In this document: in pieces, positions 12,902-58,762 of the stretch
Position numbering within the stretch: position 1 is the stretch's first letter
How the letters are laid out: each line of letters opens with the position of its first letter
DNA from: Candidatus Harrysmithiimonas galli
GTDB taxonomy: Bacteria > Bacillota > Bacilli > CAJFEE01
DNA: 64,000 bases
NCBI GenBank assembly: GCA_904373265.1
Contig: CAJFEE010000002.1
Span: 1 to 64,000 of the forward strand
Reading direction: 5' to 3'
Position numbers and translations under genes: made by a program
The notes under the pieces: generated by a model
Told to the model about the DNA's origin: nothing
Database searches by the model: none
The model's input: only the letters and a program-made list of their open reading frames with translations

Positions 12902-13180
12902 ATGCATACCGTATCAATAGAAAAAACAGATGAAAAACCGCTGGGAGATTTCCCAATTGGAACAATCTGTTATGTGACCAAATTAACCGCCAATGGTTTT
13001 ATCCAAAGAAGATTGTTGGATTTAGGAATTATTGAAGGAACAAAAATTGAAGTGCTCCATCGCAGTCCATTGGGTGATCCAGTTGCTTATCAAATTCGTG
13101 GAACTGTAATCGCTCTTAGAAAAGAAGAGGCCAAACAAATTTGGGTAAAAAAGCTGGATTTAAAAGGAGACATACAATGA
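12902..13180 (+). CDS. feoA: Ferrous iron transport protein A
   Basis: A protein of 92 residues with one SH3-like FeoA domain (MGTICYV-like IGTICYVTKL, RRLLDLGIIEGTKIEVLHRSPLGDPVAYQIRGTVIALR). FeoA is a small cytosolic partner needed for full FeoB activity. The ATG at 12902 is nine bases after the GGAGAG site; the earlier ATG at 12893 is too close to it. The stop overlaps the feoB ATG in an ATGA junction. Confidence 0.93.
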   Translation: MHTVSIEKTDEKPLGDFPIGTICYVTKLTANGFIQRRLLDLGIIEGTKIEVLHRSPLGDPVAYQIRGTVIALRKEEAKQIWVKKLDLKGDIQ

Positions 13181-15327
13181 GTGAATCCAGTCATACCACA
13201 GAAAAAAATACATGGATTTTAGAAATCCAGCAACTCAAAGCAGCAGGGAAAAAAATTATTGCACTTGCAGGAAACCCAAATGTAGGAAAAAGTACCATTT
13301 TTAATTATTTAACCGGACTCAAGCAACATACCGGAAACTGGCCGGGAAAAACCATCCAAAGTGCATACGGCACCTATCATTTCCAAGAAGAAACTTTTGT
13401 TTTTGTTGATATTCCTGGTACCTATTCATTAATGGCAAACTCTACTGATGAAGAAATTGCACGTGACTTTATTTGCTTTGGCGGTGCAGATGCTACTGTA
13501 ATTGTACTAGATGCAACCTGTATAGAAAGAAATTTAAACCTTGTTTTGCAAACTTTGGAGATTACATCCAATGTAATTGTCGTTGTTAACTTGTTAGATG
13601 AGGCACGTCGTAAGCAAATCCATGTGGACATAGATAAACTTGCCAAACAGCTTGGTGTTCCAGTAGTTCCAATGGAAGCCGCTCGAAAAAAAGGCTTCCA
13701 TCAATTGATGGAGCAAGTCTATCATGCTACACAGCCAAAATCTACTTATCAAACCAATCCAGTCCAGATTGTCTACCATCAGTGGATTGAGGAAGCCATT
13801 GCAAAATTACAACCGATTGTATCCAATATCATTGGTGATATGCTTAATGCTCGCTGGGTATGCTTAAAACTTTTAGAAAACGAGCCATTACTTATACAAA
13901 AAATAGAAAATTATACAAATAAAACTCTATTGAAAAACCCCGAATTGAAAGAACAACTCAATGAAGCACACAATCTCTTAAAGCAAAAAAATATAGATGG
14001 TTCCGCTTACAAAAGAAAAATTGTCACAACTTTGATTCAAAGTGCGGAAATTATTGCTTCTATCGCCGTTTTTACTGAAGGAAGTGGTCATGCACGTGAC
14101 AGAAAAATTGATCATGTGCTCACTTCTAAGCGATATGGAATTCCTATCATGATTTTACTATTGTTTATCATCTTTTGGATTACAATTACTGGTGCCAATT
14201 ATCCTTCACAGATGCTGTTTGACGGATTATTTTGGTTTGGTGATCGATTGTCTGAATTTTTGATATGGCTGCATGCGCCCGCATGGTTGCATGATATTTT
14301 GGTTCTTGGTGTCTATCGTTCTTTGGCATGGGTTGTGTCAGTTATGCTACCACCAATGGCCATCTTCTTTCCATTGTTTACGATATTAGAAGATCTAGGC
14401 TATTTGCCACGATTGGCATTTAATACCGACCGACTATTTCAAAAAGCACAGGCCTGTGGCAAACAAGCACTAACAATGTGTATGGGATTTGGCTGTAATG
14501 CAGCTGGTGTCACAAGCTGCCGCATTATCGGTTCCCCACGTGAACAGCTCATTGCAGTTCTAACGAATAATTTTGTTCCGTGCAATGGACGTTTTCCAAC
14601 TTTAATCGTCATTATTACTATGTTTTTTACGGGTATGCTTACCGGTCCATTTCAATCCTTTTGGTCTACAGTCATTTTAACGGCAGTGATTTTACTTGGC
14701 GTATGCATGACATTAATCATTTCACGCTTTCTGTCAAGAACAATTTTAAAGGGCGTAGCTTCCACCTTTACATTGGAATTACCACCATATCGTAAACCAC
14801 AGTTTGGGAAAGTCATTGTGCGTTCAATTTTTGACCGAACTTTATTTGTTTTATGGCGTGCAATTTCTATTGCTGCTCCTGCTGGATTGATCATTTGGAT
14901 TTTGGCAAATATTCATATTGGCGATACAAGTATTTTGACACATATTGCTGAATTTCTTGACCCGTTTGCTCGCCTTATCGGATTAGATGGCTATATTTTA
15001 ATGGCATTTATTCTCGGATTTCCTGCTAACGAAATCGTTCTTCCGATTTTAATTATGGCCTATTTACAAACTGGTTATATTTTGGAACTGGACAACTGGC
15101 AAGCAATGCGTGATTTATTTATCACACATGGATGGACATGGCTTACTGCTGTATGTATGATGCTGTTTTCACTAATGCACTGGCCATGTGGCACAACGAT
15201 CTTAACAATTAAAAAAGAAACCGGTAGTTGGAAATGGGCTGGTCTTGCTTTCTTACTGCCAACCGTTACTGGAATACTCGTATGCTTTACTGTTGCAAAT
15301 ATTGTTCGATTGCTTGGATTGATTTAA
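13177..15327 (+). CDS. feoB: Ferrous iron transport protein B
   Basis: A protein of 716 residues with an N-terminal G domain (G1 GNPNVGKST at residues 32-40, G3 DIPGTYSL, G4 NLLDE), a helical GDP-dissociation-inhibitor region and a C-terminal polytopic domain holding two Gate motifs (PCNGRFPTLIVI and the preceding MGFGCNAAGV). It imports Fe(II) across the cytoplasmic membrane with nucleotide-controlled gating. Start ATG at 13177 overlaps feoA, with AAGGAGA upstream. The adjacent divergent DtxR-type regulator fits iron-repressed expression. A terminator follows directly. Confidence 0.97.
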   Translation: MSESSHTTEKNTWILEIQQLKAAGKKIIALAGNPNVGKSTIFNYLTGLKQHTGNWPGKTIQSAYGTYHFQEETFVFVDIPGTYSLMANSTDEEIARDFICFGGADATVIVLDATCIERNLNLVLQTLEITSNVIVVVNLLDEARRKQIHVDIDKLAKQLGVPVVPMEAARKKGFHQLMEQVYHATQPKSTYQTNPVQIVYHQWIEEAIAKLQPIVSNIIGDMLNARWVCLKLLENEPLLIQKIENYTNKTLLKNPELKEQLNEAHNLLKQKNIDGSAYKRKIVTTLIQSAEIIASIAVFTEGSGHARDRKIDHVLTSKRYGIPIMILLLFIIFWITITGANYPSQMLFDGLFWFGDRLSEFLIWLHAPAWLHDILVLGVYRSLAWVVSVMLPPMAIFFPLFTILEDLGYLPRLAFNTDRLFQKAQACGKQALTMCMGFGCNAAGVTSCRIIGSPREQLIAVLTNNFVPCNGRFPTLIVIITMFFTGMLTGPFQSFWSTVILTAVILLGVCMTLIISRFLSRTILKGVASTFTLELPPYRKPQFGKVIVRSIFDRTLFVLWRAISIAAPAGLIIWILANIHIGDTSILTHIAEFLDPFARLIGLDGYILMAFILGFPANEIVLPILIMAYLQTGYILELDNWQAMRDLFITHGWTWLTAVCMMLFSLMHWPCGTTILTIKKETGSWKWAGLAFLLPTVTGILVCFTVANIVRLLGLI

Positions 15328-28949: not shown

Positions 28950-30869
28950 TTATTTCATTAGTTCACAAACTAAATCCGTATAACGTGCTGGATCTTCTAA
29001 AGAAATATCAGCAATCAATAAAGCCTGATAATATAAAATCTCCGCATATTTCTTCGCTTTCTCTTGATCGTTTTTATAAGCATCCTGTAAAGCTGTAAAA
29101 ACCGCATGGTTCGGATTCAATTCCAACACACGCTCTGCCTTCATATCTGGTGTAGCCCCTCCTGGCATCGCTTTAAAATATTTTTCCATTTCTAATGAAA
29201 TCGGACTGTCACTTGATAAACAAACTGGATGACTTTTTAATTTTTTGGAAAGAATAACACGATGTACAGAATCCTTCAAAGCTTCTTTCACAAATGTCAA
29301 TAAATCTTTGTTTTCTTCTATCTGTTCTTCCATTTGCTTTTTATCTGCATCACTTTCTAAACCTAGATCATCTCCATTAATTGATTTGAATTCCTTATCA
29401 GCATATTTCATCAAAGTTTGGAAAACAAATTCATCAATATCATCTACCAAATACAGCATTTCATAACCTTTTTCACGCACCGGCTCCGTTTGTGGAAGCT
29501 GGTCAATTTTTTTTACAGATTCACCACATGCATAGTAAATATAAGGTTGATCTTCTTTCATCCGCTCTACATATTCTTTGAGGCTGACAAGCTTATTTTC
29601 TGTTGAAGAATGGAATAAAAGCAAATCCTGCAACGTTTCTTTATGCATGCCAAAATCAGATACAACACCGTATTTTAACTGCAAACCAAATTGTCCGAAA
29701 AATTGCTCATATTTTTCTCGATGATTTTTCATTAATTTTTGCAGTTCACTTTTAATTTTCTTCTCAATATTGGAAGCAATGACTTTCAGTTGGCGGTCAT
29801 GTTGCAGCAACTCACGTGAAATATTTAAAGATAAATCCTGTGAATCAACAATTCCTTTTACAAAACGGAAATGCTCTGGCAAAAGATCAGCACATTTATC
29901 CATAATCATAACGCCACTGGAATACAATTGCAGACCTTTTTCAAATTCTTTCGTATAATACCCGTATGGGGTGTGACTTGGAATAAAGAGCATTGCCTTA
30001 TACGTAATGGCACCCTCTGCATTTACACGAAGGGTTAAAATCGGATCTTCATGATCATAAAATTTCTCTTTATAATATTGATTGCAATCCTCATCACTCA
30101 CTTCACTACGACTTCTTTGCCAAATCGGAATCATGCTGTTTAACGTTTCTTCTTCTACATAAGTTTCATATTCAATTTCCTCGTTTTCATCTGCTTCTTC
30201 CTTTTCAATTGGGCGAGATTTTTCCACATCCATCACAATCGGATAGCGGACATAATCTGAATATTTTTTTACAAGACTTTTTAGCTTGTAGGTTTCCAGA
30301 TATTCGCTGTACTTTTCTTCCTCAGTATCATCAAGAAGAGTCATAATAATCGTTGTCCCAACACCATCTTTCTCACATGGTGTAATGGTATAGCCATCTG
30401 CACCTTCAGATTCCCAACAGTACGCTTGATCGCTATTATAAGCCTTTGTAATGACTGTTACCTTTTTGCTGACCATAAATGCAGAATAAAATCCGACACC
30501 AAACTGCCCGATAATATCAACGGTATCCTGCTCATGATTTTCTGCTTTTGTCATTTCTTCCTTAAATTGTAGCGAACCACTTTTAGCAATTGTACCAAGA
30601 TTGGCTTCTAATTCCTCCAAAGTCATTCCAATTCCTGTATCCGAAAGGATCAGCTCCCGTTTTTCTGGATCAACAGTCAATTTCATTTGAAACTTATCAA
30701 CTACACCGCGCGCAGTCTCATCTGTTAAAGAAAGATAGTGTAGCTTGTCCATCGCATCGCTGCCATTTGAAATCAATTCACGCAGGAAAATTTCCTTATG
30801 TGTATAAATGGAGTGAATCATTAAATCCAATAAACGTTTGGATTCTGCTTGAAATAATTTCTTTTCCAT
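28950..30869 (-). CDS. htpG: Chaperone HtpG (bacterial Hsp90)
   Basis: A protein of 639 residues, family length. The GHKL ATP site is visible: FLRELISNGSDAMDKL (catalytic Glu and Asn), DTGIGMT, and GQFGVGFYSAFMV in the lid. The middle domain has the conserved FVKGIVDSQDLSLNISRE. It is an ATP-dependent dimeric chaperone of the cytosol. The ATG at 30869 is preferred, eight bases after AGGAAGG. Monocistronic. Confidence 0.98.
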   Translation of the reverse strand: MEKKLFQAESKRLLDLMIHSIYTHKEIFLRELISNGSDAMDKLHYLSLTDETARGVVDKFQMKLTVDPEKRELILSDTGIGMTLEELEANLGTIAKSGSLQFKEEMTKAENHEQDTVDIIGQFGVGFYSAFMVSKKVTVITKAYNSDQAYCWESEGADGYTITPCEKDGVGTTIIMTLLDDTEEEKYSEYLETYKLKSLVKKYSDYVRYPIVMDVEKSRPIEKEEADENEEIEYETYVEEETLNSMIPIWQRSRSEVSDEDCNQYYKEKFYDHEDPILTLRVNAEGAITYKAMLFIPSHTPYGYYTKEFEKGLQLYSSGVMIMDKCADLLPEHFRFVKGIVDSQDLSLNISRELLQHDRQLKVIASNIEKKIKSELQKLMKNHREKYEQFFGQFGLQLKYGVVSDFGMHKETLQDLLLFHSSTENKLVSLKEYVERMKEDQPYIYYACGESVKKIDQLPQTEPVREKGYEMLYLVDDIDEFVFQTLMKYADKEFKSINGDDLGLESDADKKQMEEQIEENKDLLTFVKEALKDSVHRVILSKKLKSHPVCLSSDSPISLEMEKYFKAMPGGATPDMKAERVLELNPNHAVFTALQDAYKNDQEKAKKYAEILYYQALLIADISLEDPARYTDLVCELMK

Positions 30870-31079
30870 TTTCAAAACCTTCCTTTATTATTTAGATTTG
30901 TCGATTTTGATTGTAGCGAACGTTTATTTTTTTTGCAAATGTTTCGGTTACCGTTTTCTTTTCAACTCAATCTCCTTGTTCAAAAATAATAATCCATTGA
31001 TAAGAATAAAAAATAAATATACTATTCAAACTATATATATTATAATTTTACTGAATCTAGACAGAAGTTGTCCATACTT

Positions 31080-47613: not shown

Positions 47614-50037
47614 CTATAAACGAATTCTTTGCAGCCGAAGTGCATTCAGAACAACGGAAACGGAGCTAAACGCCATCGCTGCACCGGCAAGCCACGGCTC
47701 CAAAAATCCCATTGCTGCAATTGGAATACCGATGCTGTTGTATAAAAGTGCCCAGAACAGATTTTGCTTAATATTGCGCATCGTCTGCTTACTCATAAAT
47801 ATTGCATCAGCAATTGTATTTAAGTCCCCTTGAATAAGGGTAATATCCGCAGCTTCCATTGCAATATCTGTACCAGTTCCAAGTGCCATGCTGGTATCGG
47901 CTGCTGCCAGTGCTGGTGCATCATTAATACCATCTCCAACCATCGCAACCTTTTTTCCCTTTGCCTGAAGTTCCTGAATCACCGCGACCTTTCCTTCAGG
48001 AAGAACCTCAGCAATAACATTTGAAATGTTGGCCTCTTTGGCAATGGCTTGCGCAGTTTTTTTATTGTCCCCAGTCACCATAATGACTTCCAACTGTAAA
48101 TCCTCTTTTAAACGCCGCACAGCTTCCTTTGAACTTTCTTTAATCGTATCGGCAACCGCAAGCATACCTTGATATACACCATCAATACCAACCAACATAA
48201 CAGTTTTGCCACTATCTTCCAACGCTTCCATTTCTGAAACTATTGCAGCAATATCAATTGATTCTCGTTCCATTAATCTTCTCGTTCCGATTGAAATACT
48301 TTGATTTTGTATCGTCGCTTGGATTCCATAACCAGGTATGGCTTGAAAATCTGCTACGTGAACGAACGGAATTCCTTTTTCCTTTACGCCTTTTACAATT
48401 GCAACAGCAAGTGGATGTTCTGATTGACTTTCTGCAGAAGCAACCAAAGATAAAAATTGTGCTTCATCCATTGCAGTGTGGATATGAACATCTGTTAGCT
48501 CTGGGACACCTTTTGTTACCGTTCCAGTTTTATCTAATATCACTGTATCAATGGTATGTGCTCGCTCCAGATGTTCACCGCCTTTAAATAAAATGCCAAA
48601 TTCTGCCGCACGACCAGAACCTGCCATAATGGAAGTAGGCGTTGCCAAACCAAGCGCGCATGGACAAGCAATGACCAAAACAGCAATTAAATTCTCCAAT
48701 GCAGAAGCAAAATCTCCTGGACGTAGCCAAACATACCAAAGTACAAAGGTAAGTAAAGCCACTGCAACAACAATTGGTACAAAAATACCAGAGATTTTAT
48801 CAGCAAATCTTTGAATCGGTGCTTTTGAACCTTGTGCTTCCTCAACCACCTTTACAATTTGTGACAAAACTGAATCATGCCCGACTTTTGTTACACGTAT
48901 CTTTAAAAAGCCGTTTTTATTGATAGTTGCTCCGATTACTGGATCTCCAACTGCTTTATCTACTGGTACACTCTCACCAGTTAACATAGATTCGTCAACT
49001 GAGGATGTTCCTTCAATAACTTCACCGTCAACAGGAATTTTTTCTCCTGGTTTGACCAAAACAAGATCTGACAAAACAACTTGTTCAATCGGAATCTCTA
49101 TTTCTTGACCCTCTCGAAGTACAAGTGCCGTTTTTGCTTGTAATCCCATCAGCTTCTGAATTGCTTCAGAAGATCGCCCTTTTGCTCTTGCTTCCAGCAG
49201 TTTACCGAGTAAAATCAAAGTAATTAACACTGCACTTGTCTCATAATATAGATGAACCGAATGCTCACTGGATGTGTTGGCAACATAGCGCAACGTCTCA
49301 TACAAACTATAAAAATATGCTGCTGATGTACCTAACGCAACCAAAACATCCATATTGGCACTTTTATTGCGAAGTGCTTTATAGGCCCCAACATAAAACT
49401 GTCCACCAATGATAAATTGTACTGGTGTAGCCAACGCCAACTGTATCCACGGATTCATAAGGATATCTGGCACAGCTATAAAAGAAGTCCATGAAAAATG
49501 ACCAAACATAGTCCACAATAAGGGTAAGGTAAAAATAATGGATACTGCCAATTTTCTTTTCAATTTTTGAATATGGATTTGACGGTGATCTTTTTGTTCT
49601 TGCTTTTCTTCTTTTAACATAGCCCCGTAGCCAAGCTTCTGGATTTGTGCAATCATATCTGATACCGAAATCACAGCCGGATTGTATTCGACCGTTGCAG
49701 TTTCCAAAGCCAAATTTACATTTGCGCCACTGATGCCATCTAATTTACACAGCCCTTTTTCCACACGAGTCGAGCAAGCCGCACACGTCATTCCTTGAAT
49801 CATAAATTCTTTCTTGTCTTGAACAACATCAAATCCGAGTGTCCGAATTTTCTTTTGAAACTCCACATCAGAAACAACTTCTGAATCATAATGAATGGTT
49901 GCCTCCTCCAATGCCAAATTCACATGAACCGACTCAACCCCAGGCATTTTTCCAATTGTCTTTTCAATTCGAGATGAACAGGCTGCACAGGTCATTCCAG
50001 TAATCTGATAATGAATTTCTTTTTGTTTCTTTGTCAT
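47614..50037 (-). CDS. copA: Copper-exporting P-type ATPase
   Basis: A protein of 807 residues. Two N-terminal heavy-metal domains each have GMTCAAC (residues about 13-19 and 82-88). Then come the transmembrane part with CPC ([11 protein letters not shown]), the TGE actuator loop (LTGES), the phosphorylation site DKTGTVT, and [10 protein letters not shown]. The P1B-1 type exports Cu(I). ATG at 50037 follows GGGTGGG. It is the third gene after csoR and copZ, 110 bases beyond copZ, with its own CsoR-like box just upstream. Confidence 0.97.
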
Positions 50038-51572: not shown

Positions 51573-52523
51573 TTAATGTTGGTGCATATGCATATGTGTA
51601 ACAGTATGCTCCAATGTACAAAGCACCGAGTCCTTATGCGGATGCTGATCACTTTCCACTTGCACGGTTACATGGGAAATATGAAGATGCTCCAACTTAT
51701 GCTCAATCCGGTGCAAAAGTGCACTGCTTTCCTCAATGGTCATATTTTCATGTACAACAATATGACAAGATAACGCATTTAAGCCACTTGTAATCGTCCA
51801 AACATGTAAATCATGGATACTCTCTACCACTTCTTCATCTTCTATCGCTTGAATGACTGCATGAATATCCACATTTTTCGGTGTAGCCTCCATTAAAATG
51901 TACAAGGCTTCTTTTGTCACAATCCATCCACTACGCAATACAAGTGCCGCCACTAGCACACTCGCCACAGTATCTGCCCATACCCAGCCAAATGCCAACA
52001 TCAAAAGTGCTGCTACAATGGCACCGACTGAACCAAGCATATCACTGATTACATGTAAAAAAGCACCGCGCATATTCAAGTTATCTTTTGTATCTCCACC
52101 GCGCATCATAATCCAAGCAACCAGCACATTAACCAAAAGCCCAATAATGCTAATTACAAGCATCCCTAAACTTTCAACCTCTGGTGGTTGAAAAAAACGT
52201 TCAACCGCTTCATAAAAAATAAACAAGGCAATCCCAATTAATGCAATCCCATTTACAATGGTTGCCAAAATTTCAAAACGCTTATTGCCATAAGTTTTAT
52301 GATAACTTGCTGCTCGCTCACTTAACATAAATGCAACCAGAGCAATACCAAGTGATAATGAATCACTAAACATATGCCCAGCATCCGATAAAAGTGCCAA
52401 ACTATTGGTTACATAACCACCAATGGCTTCAATAATCATATAAGCTGTAATAATAATAAAAGAAATCAATAAAGTTTTTTTATTGGCTGTATGCGTATGA
52501 TGATGTTCATGATGTTGTGACAT
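51573..52523 (-). CDS. czcD: Zinc/cobalt cation diffusion facilitator CzcD
   Basis: A protein of 316 residues. A His-rich N-terminus (QHHEHHHTHT), six membrane segments with the HxxxD/DxxxD metal sites (LLSDAGHMFSDSL in TM2, HVISDMLGSVGA in TM5) and a cytosolic C-terminal domain, with a final His-rich tail (HTVTHMHMHQH). It exchanges protons for Zn(II) (also Co, Cd) out of the cell. The ATG at 52523 follows GGAAGTG. It lies 24 bases downstream of the ArsR-type repressor. Confidence 0.95.
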   Translation of the reverse strand: MSQHHEHHHTHTANKKTLLISFIIITAYMIIEAIGGYVTNSLALLSDAGHMFSDSLSLGIALVAFMLSERAASYHKTYGNKRFEILATIVNGIALIGIALFIFYEAVERFFQPPEVESLGMLVISIIGLLVNVLVAWIMMRGGDTKDNLNMRGAFLHVISDMLGSVGAIVAALLMLAFGWVWADTVASVLVAALVLRSGWIVTKEALYILMEATPKNVDIHAVIQAIEDEEVVESIHDLHVWTITSGLNALSCHIVVHENMTIEESSALLHRIEHKLEHLHISHVTVQVESDQHPHKDSVLCTLEHTVTHMHMHQH

Positions 52524-52547
52524 TTTTTCACTTCCTTTCCTGATCAT

Positions 52548-53764: not shown

Positions 53765-55762
53765 CATGAGTATCATTTTATGTTACAGTTCAACATAGAT
53801 GTGCATATTGGCACACGTTTTTCTTTGGAATTTCAATACATCTTATGTTACGGTTCAACAATTTTTGGAGGGATTCTTTTGAGATTTTGTTTTAGATTTC
53901 AATACATCTTATGTTACGGTTCAACTCCATAGATTCGACGATGTAGACGAAAGCGAAGCGCATTTCAATACATCTTATGTTACGGTTCAACCAAAAACCT
54001 TCATTTACGAACAAAATCCTTAAGAAAATTTCAATACATCTTATGTTACGGTTCAACTTTCGCTTTTGATATAATTTTTATATAAGAAAAGTAAATTTCA
54101 ATACATCTTATGTTACGGTTCAACCCATAACCCAAAGTAAGACCAATACCTACAAAAAAATTTCAATACATCTTATGTTACGGTTCAACTTTAATCAAAT
54201 ACAACGGCAATAAATCCACTAAATACATTTCAATACATCTTATGTTACGGTTCAACTAACACCACATTAACATATTATGCACACCTTCTTAAATTTCAAT
54301 ACATCTTATGTTACGGTTCAACTCCTAAAAAAGTTTTTTATAAAATTATACAAAAAAATTTCAATACATCTTATGTTACGGTTCAACATAATGCGGTCAT
54401 TCGCATGGCAATCGACCATCAAGATTTCAATACATCTTATGTTACGGTTCAACTATCCCAGTTTTGCCAGAGTTTTACCCCGATAGTAAATTTCAATACA
54501 TCTTATGTTACGGTTCAACTTGTTCCCCTGGTTCTAATCTCTCCATGTACTCGGGATTTCAATACATCTTATGTTACGGTTCAACTGGCATTGTTCTATT
54601 TCCTCCTTTTGTTTTTTTATCATTTCAATACATCTTATGTTACGGTTCAACGTTGTTGTTTCGTAACTTTTTGCCAGTTGACTTGATTTCAATACATCTT
54701 ATGTTACGGTTCAACTATGGCTGGTACAGCAACATATGGATCAGGAGAAAATTTCAATACATCTTATGTTACGGTTCAACTTTCATTTTCTTCCATAAAA
54801 AAATACCTCCAAAAATATTTCAATACATCTTATGTTACGGTTCAACAACACATTCGGGCTTCCGCTTGCTGCAACAGAATCAATTTCAATACATCTTATG
54901 TTACGGTTCAACAAAAACCATTTCTATCCTGTGTAAAAATAAAATTAGAATTTCAATACATCTTATGTTACGGTTCAACGGAGGGCGACGGAAATGATTA
55001 AGGACAAACGGATTTGATTTCAATACATCTTATGTTACGGTTCAACTCTTTTAATCTCTGTAACTTTCTTTCAAGAACATTATTTCAATACATCTTATGT
55101 TACGGTTCAACCAGAAAATAAAGTATTAAATCCATCTACTATTAAATTTCAATACATCTTATGTTACGGTTCAACCATCTGAAAATTCCATTTCAATCCC
55201 CTTCAAAGCACATTTCAATACATCTTATGTTACGGTTCAACGCCTACAATTAAGTTTCCTAAAATAAAAAAACAAGATTTCAATACATCTTATGTTACGG
55301 TTCAACGAAAAAGCAATCAAAGAACGGGAGGGCGACGGAAATTTCAATACATCTTATGTTACGGTTCAACCGTTTGTATTTCCATCATCTAACTCAGGGT
55401 CACTGAATTTCAATACATCTTATGTTACGGTTCAACTTGCACACGCACAATTGATTCATCTGTTGTTTGAATTTCAATACATCTTATGTTACGGTTCAAC
55501 CATAACCAAACGCTCTACATAAACTCGTAATATTATTTCAATACATCTTATGTTACGGTTCAACTTTTCCAAATTTTCCATAAAAAAATCCCTCCAAAAA
55601 TATTTCAATACATCTTATGTTACGGTTCAACAAAAACACACCTTCCCTAACATAAAAAAATAAAAAGATTTCAATACATCTTATGTTACGGTTCAACGTT
55701 TGTCTAACTTTCGCTAAAATTAAAGAATTATCATTTCAATACATCTTATGTTACGGTTCAAC
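53765..55762 (-). CRISPR. CRISPR array, type I-B-like repeat, 30 spacers
   Basis: Thirty identical 30-base repeats (starts 53830, 53896, 53962 ... 55668, 55733) of the form ATTTCAATACATC...ACGGTTCAAC alternate with 34-37-base spacers. A decayed repeat at 53765-53794 (last 18 bases nearly intact, first 10 diverged) ends the array on the left. Read on the minus strand, the repeat starts GTTGAACC and ends ATTGAAAT, the usual crRNA 5' handle of type I-B systems. The decayed repeat at the left and a promoter-like sequence at 55791-55819 at the right both show that transcription runs right to left and that new spacers enter at 55762. No cas gene lies within the window. Confidence 0.98.
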
Positions 55763-56033
55763 TCTTGCACTTATGCATTTTATATTTTTCATCATATCAA
55801 ATAGTTGTTGCAGTCTCAACGTTTTTTATTATTTTTTCCAATGACAAATACTTTTTCTCACAAAAATCAAAAACATCACTAAAAGCCTGAAAGCATCAAG
55901 CTTTATCGATTCCTTTGTCATTTTGTAGTTGGAAAACGGCTACAATAAAAACCTGAAAACAAAAAGAAACGGCAATGGCAAAACAACAACCTCTCAAATC
56001 TTTCGTATTTTTTATCCGGAGCTGATATCGTCT
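55763..56033 (-). promoter_or_regulatory. CRISPR leader with promoter
   Basis: On the minus strand TTGAGA (complement of 55814-55819), a 17-base spacer and TATGAT (complement of 55791-55796) form a sigma-A type promoter about 30 bases before the first repeat. The rest of the leader is AT-rich, with TTGTCA further upstream. The 3' flank of the permease gene shares this stretch. Confidence 0.72.
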
Positions 56034-58001
56034 TTAAGATTTCACAATTTTATAATACGTACGTGCGGTCACAAAATATACCAATGCATAAATCAAAGAA
56101 AACACCAGTACTGACAAAACAGTACAAAGCAGAAAAAACGAAACATTACTCATGCTCAAAGTCCGCAGCATTTTTGTAATAATGGGAAAGGCAACCGAAA
56201 TATGTACAATCGCCATCAAAAGTGGTAAGAAAAAGACGGTCAAAATTTGACTACGGATTGTCTGCTTTACCTCATTATGACTCATTCCGACCTTTTGCAA
56301 AATTTCAAATCGCAATCGATCATGATATCCTTCCGAAACTTGTTTATAATAAATAATAATGACCGTTGCAAATAAACAAAGCATCCCTAAGAAAATTGCG
56401 ATAAACAATAAATTTCCGTACAGCTGATAAAAACTTGTATGCTCTCCAGCAATACTGCTCAAATCCACGTCGGAGCTTTTTCCCATATTCTTTTTCAACA
56501 AATGTTTCAAACTTTGATTAAATTCCTCTATTTTCTCATCATCTGCATTGTTAAAATTGATACCATATTCATACTGTAGTTGAACATCCAGATTCGACAA
56601 AACACCCAATGAATCGAAACTGTCAACAACCAAATAATCACTCACAAAAGCTGGCTCACGCAAATATTTTGTCAGAGTAAAATCAGATAAATTTTCTTGT
56701 ATGTTCCATATTTGATTCTCAATCCTTATTGTGTTTGGTTCATCGGTTTGATTTTCTGAAAATAATAAGACCGCATTTTCTTCTAGCTGAACATTTTTCC
56801 CCTCTATTCGATTGTAATCCTCCAGTGAAATCACATACACCGATTGTACAGTTGTCATATCTACGTTATTTTGATTTGGATTTAGCGTATAGTAATTGTC
56901 CTTTTTTTGTGCAACAAGCGAATAATATGTGTAAGAAAGTGTTTCAGAAATTGAAATATTCTCTTTTTGTGCCGCTTGTTGAACCAGTTGTTCCAACTTT
57001 TCCTGCTGTTTCGGTTCATTTGCCAAACTATGGCTGAGGAGCATTGTATCTGCTGGGTATCGATCTCGTATAATTTCATTGATACCCGCATACAAAGAAG
57101 TTGTACTGGAAAACATCACAAGAACTGCTGTACTTAGTAAGCAAATATTTGCCAATCCTGCCGCATTTTGTTTCATTCGATAGATCATACCTGAAACGGA
57201 AACAAAATGATTGATTTGATAATAAAATCGTTTATTTCGTTTCAATCCTTTTAAAATTGCAATGCTTCCTGCTGTAAACAGTGCATAAGTCCCAATCATT
57301 ACAAAAAGCACTGCAACAAAAAACAAACCAACTGCCGCAAGTGGAGACTTTACGCTCAATGCAATTGCATAACCAATACCCAATGAAACAAATCCAATCA
57401 ATGTAAGCAGCCAGCGCGTCTTGGGTTCCTTTTCTCCAACTCTATCACCTTTTAACAGCTCGATCGGATGGCTTAAATGAATTTGAAAAATCTGATACAA
57501 AAACAAAAATAGAAAAATACCCATAAACCAACCAATTGTATTCAAAATAGCCTGTATTTCAATATAAAATAAAAGTGTTTCAAATTGCAGTAATTTTGCA
57601 ATCAGCATATACATAAGCTTATTAAGCAATAACCCTGCTGCCAAACCGAACACCAAAGCACCTAAAAACAACCATAAGCTTTCAAAAAACAAAACTTTGG
57701 CAATATGCTTTTTCTCCATCCCTAAAATATTATAAAGCCCTATTTCCTTTTTCCGTTTCTTCATTAAAAAACCATAGGTATAAAATAAAAAGATAACAGA
57801 AAATACATGCAGTACACCAATTGCCAAACTCAGCAAAGCATGTACACTTCCGTTTGCTTTCAAACTTTTATGCATACCAAGTGAATAAATCAAATAAAAA
57901 AAACAAACCATAAAAATACAAGAGAATAAATACGGGAAATACAATCTTCTGTTTTTCTGGATATTAGACAATGCCAACTTGACATAGAAAAAACGTTTCA
58001 T
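56034..58001 (-). CDS. bceB: BceB-type ABC permease (antimicrobial peptide resistance)
   Basis: A protein of 655 residues with ten membrane segments of FtsX type and a large extracellular domain of about 230 residues between segments 7 and 8 (roughly residues 310-540), the hallmark of BceB permeases that recognise lipid II-binding peptides. KKRKKEIGLYNILGMEKKHI near residue 82 is the cytosolic FtsX motif. With BceA it removes bacitracin-like or lantibiotic peptides from their target and passes the signal to the BceS kinase. The start overlaps bceA by four bases. Confidence 0.93.
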   Translation of the reverse strand: MKRFFYVKLALSNIQKNRRLYFPYLFSCIFMVCFFYLIYSLGMHKSLKANGSVHALLSLAIGVLHVFSVIFLFYTYGFLMKKRKKEIGLYNILGMEKKHIAKVLFFESLWLFLGALVFGLAAGLLLNKLMYMLIAKLLQFETLLFYIEIQAILNTIGWFMGIFLFLFLYQIFQIHLSHPIELLKGDRVGEKEPKTRWLLTLIGFVSLGIGYAIALSVKSPLAAVGLFFVAVLFVMIGTYALFTAGSIAILKGLKRNKRFYYQINHFVSVSGMIYRMKQNAAGLANICLLSTAVLVMFSSTTSLYAGINEIIRDRYPADTMLLSHSLANEPKQQEKLEQLVQQAAQKENISISETLSYTYYSLVAQKKDNYYTLNPNQNNVDMTTVQSVYVISLEDYNRIEGKNVQLEENAVLLFSENQTDEPNTIRIENQIWNIQENLSDFTLTKYLREPAFVSDYLVVDSFDSLGVLSNLDVQLQYEYGINFNNADDEKIEEFNQSLKHLLKKNMGKSSDVDLSSIAGEHTSFYQLYGNLLFIAIFLGMLCLFATVIIIYYKQVSEGYHDRLRFEILQKVGMSHNEVKQTIRSQILTVFFLPLLMAIVHISVAFPIITKMLRTLSMSNVSFFLLCTVLSVLVFSLIYALVYFVTARTYYKIVKS

Positions 58002-58762
58002 ATCTTTCCACCTCCGGAAAGTAAAACCGTTAAAGTATGAGAAATTTTCTCAAACATTTCTTCAACGGTCATATGACCGCGATACAGTTGATGAAATACT
58101 TCTCCGTCACGCATAAATAAGACCCTTTTTGCATGGCTGGCTGCTCTTGTGCTATGCGTAACCATCACGATTGTTTGTCCCTCTTCATTAATATCCGAAA
58201 ACAGTTGAAGCAACTGATTGGTCGATTTTGAATCCAACGCACCAGTTGGCTCATCTGCCAAAATCAATTTTGGGTTTGTAATCAATGCGCGCGCAACTGC
58301 TGCACGCTGCTGCTGACCGCCAGAAATTTCATACGGGAACTTATCTAGTAAATGTTGAATCCCCAATTTTTTTGCAATCGGTAACATCCTTTCTTCCATC
58401 TCCAAAAACATTTTCCCAGATAAGACAAGTGGCAAAACAATATTATCCTGAATCGAAAACGTATCCAGCAAATTAAAATCTTGAAATACAAAACCAAGCT
58501 CATTTCGACGAAACGCTGCAAGTTCACTTTCCTTTATCATTGTTAAATTTTTTCCATTCAAAAAAACGGTTCCACTTGTTGGACGATCCAGTGCTGCCAA
58601 AATATTTAAAAGTGTGGTTTTTCCAGAACCTGATTCACCCATAATTGCAACATATTCTCCCTCCTCTACTGAAAATGTCACTTGACGAAGTGCCTCGACT
58701 TGCCGATCACCAAAACGTGTTGTATAAATCTTTTTCAACTGTTCGACTTCCAATAATGTCAT
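57998..58762 (-). CDS. bceA: BceA-type ABC ATPase
   Basis: A protein of 254 residues. Walker A GESGSGKTT (near residues 39-47), signature ISGGQQQRAAVARAL, Walker B LILADEPTGALDS. It is the LolD/MacB-like ATPase of BceAB. ATG at 58762 follows TAGGAGG. It leads bceAB, 336 bases downstream of the kinase gene, with its own promoter region containing repeated TTACATTT motifs. Confidence 0.95.
   Translation of the reverse strand: MTLLEVEQLKKIYTTRFGDRQVEALRQVTFSVEEGEYVAIMGESGSGKTTLLNILAALDRPTSGTVFLNGKNLTMIKESELAAFRRNELGFVFQDFNLLDTFSIQDNIVLPLVLSGKMFLEMEERMLPIAKKLGIQHLLDKFPYEISGGQQQRAAVARALITNPKLILADEPTGALDSKSTNQLLQLFSDINEEGQTIVMVTHSTRAASHAKRVLFMRDGEVFHQLYRGHMTVEEMFEKISHTLTVLLSGGGKI

Follow-up and report, generated by a model that had tools for sequence, protein, structure and literature searches.

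Why would the spacers of a CRISPR array carry, more than once, the same ribosome-binding-site sequence? The question is raised by an array in the window, which is the whole stretch of 64,000 nucleotides of Candidatus Harrysmithiimonas galli DNA that was analyzed. The first-pass annotation of this DNA pointed out that the complements of the spacers at 54781-54816 and 55565-55601 share an SD sequence and a start codon, and the full reverse complements of the two (ATTTTTGGAGGTATTTTTTTATGGAAGAAAATGAAA and ATTTTTGGAGGGATTTTTTTATGGAAAATTTGGAAAA, respectively) confirm this.

The array spans positions 53830-55762 on the minus strand. It is built of 30 identical 30-nt repeats (Rfam RF01316, CRISPR-DR3), which enclose 29 spacers of 34-37 nt and not 30 as initially counted. 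In addition, a degenerate repeat, recognized by repeat family search and by its sequence, lies at the distal (oldest) end (53765-53794, minus strand). The array leader was assigned to 55763-55932 (minus strand) on the basis of a promoter-like site, TTGAGA-17-TATGAT at 55819-55791, a CATTGGAAAAA block and its alignment to those of five further arrays in the genome. Promoter-like sites are no commoner in this leader region than in shuffled sequence. The presumed leader ends of six of the seven array blocks in the genome were compared, and TATRAT and CATTGGAAAAA blocks are common to them. In contrast, the distal ends of four arrays do not align (28-40%). Because this comparison places the leader to the right of 55762, crRNAs of the array have the sense of the minus strand, with the most recent spacers on the right-hand side.

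The genome comprises 2.70 Mb in 59 contigs, and the repeat family is also found on contigs C6, C7 (twice), C13, C27, and C34. Genome-wide, 155 spacers were read, a set that leaves aside one 85-nt gap in C6, the long gaps among the C7 repeats and a contig-end fragment on C34. The cas genes lie on C7 and not in the window, in the order cas6, cas8b, cas7, cas5, cas3, cas4, cas1b and cas2, with an array directly beyond cas2. The repeat of this array differs from that of the window by one base, and the two leaders are 65% alike over 200 bases, including one repeat. The effector proteins are those of type I-B, namely Cas8b (PADLOC, 3.5e-173), Cas7b, Cas5b, Cas3b, and Cas6b, as are the adaptation proteins encoded next to the array on C7, which include Cas1b (NCBIfam, 3.4e-124), Cas2 and Cas4. 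Cas1, a Cas1b of 338 amino acids, is found on C7 only. Overall, the system is of type I-B with the full usual gene set, and its machinery is ordinary.

Several features of the surroundings were also noted. On C7, within about 81.4-85.6 kb, a normal array is preceded by two isolated repeats and a pair of repeats, with intervening gaps of 1705, 1572, and 737 bases. Four ORFs between or beside these repeats belong to no Pfam family, except for one weak FecCD match below the cut-off. The neighbors of the window array are ordinary, the eight scanned proteins including HtpG, FeoB, a metal P-type ATPase, a cation efflux protein, an FtsX-type ABC transporter and others (28950-30875, 13141-15327, 47614-50037, 51573-52547, 56034-58762). 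Repeat-like copies, with four to six substitutions relative to the CRISPR repeat, are present in Dulem virus 30, Paenibacillus phage SV21 and one faecal phage contig (reversed strand, about 1513-1542, about 1012-1041 and about 611-640 in the three records). These copies could be mini-arrays or repeat-mimicking anti-CRISPR RNAs.

Read in the crRNA sense, the two window spacers begin at the identical base with ATTTTTGGAGG(T/G)ATTTTTTTATGGAA. The spacer at 55565-55601 (minus strand), third from the array leader, consists of ATTTTTGGAGGGATTTTTTTATG followed by a MENLE start, and that at 54781-54816 (minus strand), the 15th, of ATTTTTGGAGGTATTTTTTTATG followed by a MEENE start. Four more spacers with this gene-start leader occur elsewhere in the genome, one on C6 (108310) and three on C27 (31175, 31500, and 32744), which brings the set to six of 155 spacers in three arrays. 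Their common reading is ATTTTT(T)(T)GG(A/G)GG(G/T)ATTTTT, after which come a start codon and differing gene beginnings. These are MEENE, MENLE, MFND, and MRWN, the last of which is found twice in variants that are alike at 32 of 34 positions, so that at least four different starts are represented; the sixth spacer probably starts with TTG or at an ATG further on. All six begin at the A of ATTTTT, and the ribosome-binding leader occupies their PAM-proximal seed. They rank 3rd and 15th from the array leader in the window, 4th on C6, and 8th, 13th, and 32nd of 34 on C27. The oldest spacer of the window, 29th of 29 at 53860-53895, carries the gene-start leader as AATTTTTGGAGGGATT on the plus strand, opposite to the crRNA. 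The first-pass annotation had also recognized this copy (plus strand, AATTTTTGGAGGGATTCTTTTGAGATTTTGTTTTAG), though the spacer is without an ATG; a TTG is possible. Since the ranks run from third to last, acquisition of such spacers recurred over the history of the arrays. Sequence, strand and cut point are shared across three arrays and across array ages.

This repetition exceeds chance. A 19-mer defined from the two window spacers, ATTTTTGGAGGKATTTTTT, has three copies in the genome, all within spacers, and is present in only one of the 397 other genomes sampled from the class (398 including this one, drawn evenly from a larger group). The motif ATTTTTGGAGGNAT has eight copies in the genome, four of them within the 5.5 kb of spacers (Fisher p 2e-10, a value flattered by the choice of the motif from the spacers). 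The other four, outside the arrays, all stand at starts of chromosomal genes, namely those for ribosomal protein S16, trigger factor, a hydroxylamine reductase and an MMPL-type transporter (a partial protein, below the family cut-off), and a near copy precedes the trigger factor gene of the sister genome. In this lineage, therefore, the sequence genuinely acts as a signal for translation. The cleanest test is given by the sole further genome copy of ATTTTTGGAGGKATTTTTT, which fell in another spacer when spacers make up 0.2% of the genome. As controls, 1756 spacers were taken from 56 of 66 related cas1 loci in GTDB genomes, with five odd repeat families set aside. Pairs of spacers with the same first 13 bases and a divergent remainder, by thresholds set after the set had been seen, number four in this genome, all within the leader set, and zero in the controls. 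The mirror pattern, with a shared 3' and a divergent 5' part, is found neither in this genome nor among the 1756 control spacers.

Outside the leader set, the 155 spacers include five near-identical pairs in the same phase (94-100% alike, one differing in length alone). They lie on C6, C7, and C27, within or between arrays, and have the same start. The controls contain seven near-identical and 14 identical pairs, the latter kind being absent from this genome. Perhaps these pairs represent one site taken again from variant targets, in which case capture of one site from variants is not confined to the leader set.

The source of the spacers was sought in three collections. No full protospacer was found in INPHARED (blastn with two concatenated queries that together covered 134 of the 155 spacers, and with the window and C27 arrays as wholes), in IMG/VR (exact patterns for a few spacers) or in PLSDB (the C6 array). 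The search of viral databases proposed with the first-pass annotation was thereby carried out in part, and it returned no full-length phage match in INPHARED or IMG/VR. For this reason the phage origin of the spacers is something that we infer. The annotation's view that translation starts were hit repeatedly holds insofar as several spacers share one leader and four more lie in other arrays; its attribution to phages is to be read with that reservation. Several partial matches were set aside. A microvirus was rejected as the source of 55565-55601, for the best INPHARED match (bajarodmic virus 535, E 4e-3) is limited to one gene start and was absent from a second INPHARED blastn search. Matches taken as chance were those to Staphylococcus sciuri phages (E 0.05, with repeat sequence making up half) and to Klebsiella, Campylobacter, and Vibrio (E 0.6-7) among the best 60 of 68 in INPHARED, to a Streptococcus phage (INPHARED, E 0.7), to Prochlorococcus (0.2) and Escherichia (8) among the best 40 of 81 in INPHARED, and to Enterococcus plasmids (PLSDB, E 0.4). 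A match to an Arcobacter plasmid (PLSDB, E 8e-4, in five pieces) may be driven by the repeats.

Overlaps between spacers give some indication of the PAM. The 3' end of spacer 54781-54816 overlaps, at 14 of 15 positions, the start of a C7 spacer that continues as MEENAKVRKANL. Similarly, the spacer at 54980-55016 (minus strand) shares an identical overlap of 14 bases with that at 55307-55340, so that the same target region is tiled, with a 5' flank hint of ATCAT. The five sets of bases obtained 5' of a neighboring spacer are TTA and CAT from this genome and TTA, TCA, and GCA from relatives, of which CAT fits TNA only with a slip of one base (TCA). In the antisense spacer at 53860-53895, an A stands immediately before ATTTTT. 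From these sequences, a PAM, probably TNA, would lie directly 5' of the gene-start leader. The arrays of two relatives had no INPHARED match from which a PAM could be derived. According to the available part of one report, TNA, NAA, and NCA are the putative PAMs in three I-B systems of clostridia, position -1 being A in 10 of 10 cases, and one of the three functional PAMs of C. pasteurianum ends in A and two do not (PMC4860712). The PAMs of I-B systems are described as diverse in the excerpt available of another, with 11 unique ones and CCN for Clostridium (PMC8482600).

The spacers are likely to derive from one conserved translation-initiation leader in related phages, by repeated capture anchored at the PAM. 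Mobile elements, most probably phages that infect this bacterium, would carry a leader of about (A)ATTTTTGGAGG(G/T)ATTTTTT..ATG in front of several different genes, and the source would be related phages outside the collections sampled. With a PAM, probably TNA, immediately 5' of this leader, Cas1-Cas2 (with Cas4) would start the spacer at a constant base, and the crRNA would have its seed in the invariant leader and its 3' half in the variable gene start. A PAM in this position would fix both the cut point and the strand and leave captures from the opposite strand unfixed, as is seen. The first-pass annotation had suggested that the sites carry the PAM or are conserved; a conserved leader with a PAM immediately before it would best account for the identical cut point. 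The six crRNAs, being equal to mRNA sequence, would base-pair with template-strand DNA instead of the transcript, and would guide the cleavage of phage targets by Cas3. With its seed filled by the leader, each crRNA may recognize several genes or several phages, and the conservation of the seed may help such spacers to arise or persist. Against this explanation, source and PAM are unobserved, the full protospacer being absent from the searches above, and the hints at the PAM are few, one needs a slip, and PAMs vary among I-B systems. Moreover, six like spacers could mirror a very small set of targets instead of a special site, and near-identical pairs occur in the controls too.

A special form of this explanation, whose odds overlap with those of the general one, has somewhat less than an even chance of being correct. 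It holds that the leader occurs once per phage, always at the same slot for accessory genes, and that related phages differ only in which gene follows it. The six spacers would then record a single site in several phages, as opposed to several sites within one. The near-identical pairs at other sites fit such resampling of one site in variants, and a comparable slot is present in prophages of the Fusobacterium necrophorum type. In IMG/VR, ATTTTTGGAGGKATTTTTT occurs in 14 stretches, six of which represent two gene contexts of these prophages, assigned to their host by the match of one stretch to phage phiBB. There the ATTTTTGGAGGTATTTTTT leader and ATGGAACAA precede two different genes after a nearly identical upstream stretch, which holds a TTATAAT that looks promoter-like by eye. 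The downstream neighbors are alike in the two contexts (two versus three stretches; the sixth ends there). The swapped genes are unrelated and small (105 and about 164 amino acids) and have no Pfam family at E 0.01. By analogy, a fixed start signal with an accessory slot offers the best model for one leader preceding many genes. However, the Fusobacterium element is an analogue only, and the six spacers are more variable than these prophages in the distance to the start codon and in the bases that follow the leader.

It is also conceivable, but unlikely, that the spacers are generalists whose recurrent capture is adaptive. The seed would then lie on a start signal that phages can hardly alter, so that a single crRNA could bind many genes with the leader in many related phages, a long match leading to cutting and a match of the seed alone to silencing of the CreA type. 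If so, a cost or a regulatory side effect would be expected at the host genes for ribosomal protein S16 and trigger factor.

That the spacers derive from, or serve to regulate, such host genes is highly improbable. In its favor, three of the spacers have seeds that match the four host gene starts with ATTTTTGGAGGNAT for 11-14 bases, and the type I-B CreA, as described in the portion available of the source, sets a precedent for repression by seed and PAM, using seed positions 1-5 and 7-11, or 10 seed pairs (PMC8501985). Over their full length, however, the spacers match the host copies at just 13-27 of 34-37 positions, the genes begun in the spacers are none of the four, and the flanks of the host copies (AAA, CTA, ACA, and CAT) do not include TNA, although four sites tell little on avoidance. 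A regulatory side effect at host genes with the leader may nevertheless occur, by analogy with CreA.

Chance convergence is an equally slight prospect. In AT-rich DNA, strong ribosome-binding sites resemble one another, so that unrelated targets could have given similar spacers, and similar gene starts do exist in unrelated phages. A rodent-gut microvirus matches a leader spacer at 31 of 37 positions at a gene start, and the human faecal phage contigs MT836000, MT835576, and MT838245 (INPHARED, E 0.6, 7, and 7) have the leader-like starts ATTTTGGAGGGATTTTTTTATG, ATTTTTGGAGGTATCATTGATATG, and ATTTTTGGAGGTATTTTATCATG before other genes. Some of the 24 IMG/VR stretches with TTTTTGGAGGGATTTTT have leader-like starts as well. 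When five microviruses and one faecal contig were compared with 139 spacers, with one shuffle as control, only spacers of the leader set exceeded the control. Spacers 55565-55601 and 54781-54816 matched leader-like starts, and C27 32744 barely exceeded the control (25/36 against 24/35) at a site elsewhere. The remaining genes of the microviruses are without the leader, and an IMG/VR scan with a microvirus protein yielded no relative among its 99 pattern matches. Against chance stand the presence of the 19-mer in just one of the 397 other sampled genomes of the class, the identical cut point in six of six spacers and the lack of any such set among the control spacers.

The proportion of gene starts among the spacers, a comparison with expectation that the first-pass annotation had called for, bears on a broader preference of the system. 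The SD-ATG pattern was found in six of 139 own spacers in the sense orientation and in two in the antisense, compared with 21 and 33, respectively, of the 1756 controls. In AT-rich phage DNA the background is 1.3% for 36-mers overall and 1.4% for those flanked by TNA. Taken alone, the sense orientation shows an excess (p 0.010-0.015 versus background; Fisher p 0.011 versus controls), but with both strands pooled the counts are 8/139 versus 54/1756 (p 0.13), and five of the six sense spacers are members of the leader set. With 16 further spacers, C34 being added, the count outside this set is one of 149, equal to the background rate, which lends no support to a preference for gene starts beyond the set. 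That one spacer, 54586-54621 (minus strand, AAAAGGAGGAAATAGAACAATG), has a clear, unrelated SD-ATG, as had been annotated; the other spacer so annotated, 55176-55211, has a weak GGGG-ATG that the pattern does not count. Because the rate outside the leader set is that of the background, neither needs an explanation. A general preference of the system for gene starts, for example through transcript-linked or RNA-derived acquisition, can therefore be put aside as the least credible reading despite the sense excess (p about 0.01), for it is confined to the leader set, Cas1 is the 338-residue Cas1b described above, and crRNAs equal to mRNA cannot pair with it. Spacers of I-B systems in general lean slightly the other way, with 55% on the coding strand in the available text of PMC8482600.

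The PAM-anchored capture of a conserved phage leader, our preferred reading, can finally be set beside known systems. The closest relatives are the type I-B loci of Clostridium and Lachnospiraceae, with at least 66 cas1 loci at 57-74% Cas1 identity, one partial sequence at 84% and Clostridium thailandense at 72%. They are like the present system in the type of cas1, and many have 30-nt repeats ending in ATTGAAAT or ATTTAAAT beyond cas1. Unlike it, they show no spacer set with a shared 5' and a divergent 3' part among the control spacers, by post hoc thresholds. By the rule for the CreA guide RNAs of type I-B, which silence a promoter by their seed, the 11-14-base host matches would be long enough, as far as the accessible part of PMC8501985 goes. 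In contrast to CreA, the spacers here are normal array spacers, and TNA, itself a putative PAM, is absent beside the host matches. The Fusobacterium prophage slot has the same 19-base leader before unrelated genes, but in another host and with genes that differ from those begun in the spacers. With the study of PAMs in the regulatory regions of T4, the common idea, in the part of the text available, is that PAMs lie within phage expression signals; that study concerns PAM sites in T4, and the present case concerns spacers (PMC9161530). A literature search at the level of titles and the beginnings of abstracts found no published account of spacers aimed at ribosome-binding sites, and the accessible portion of PMC7162821 has nothing on them. 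Should the leader be a phage start signal under constraint, with the PAM built in, CRISPR memory would have converged on a viral site that is hard to mutate, which bears on the persistence of spacers. If it is merely the common sequence of one phage family, the PAM and the 19-mer would still be bait for unsampled viruses of a poorly represented lineage, the order being represented by two genomes in the collection searched. The CRISPR system itself is of a known kind; the unusual feature is its choice of target, with several spacers fixed on one ribosome-binding leader.
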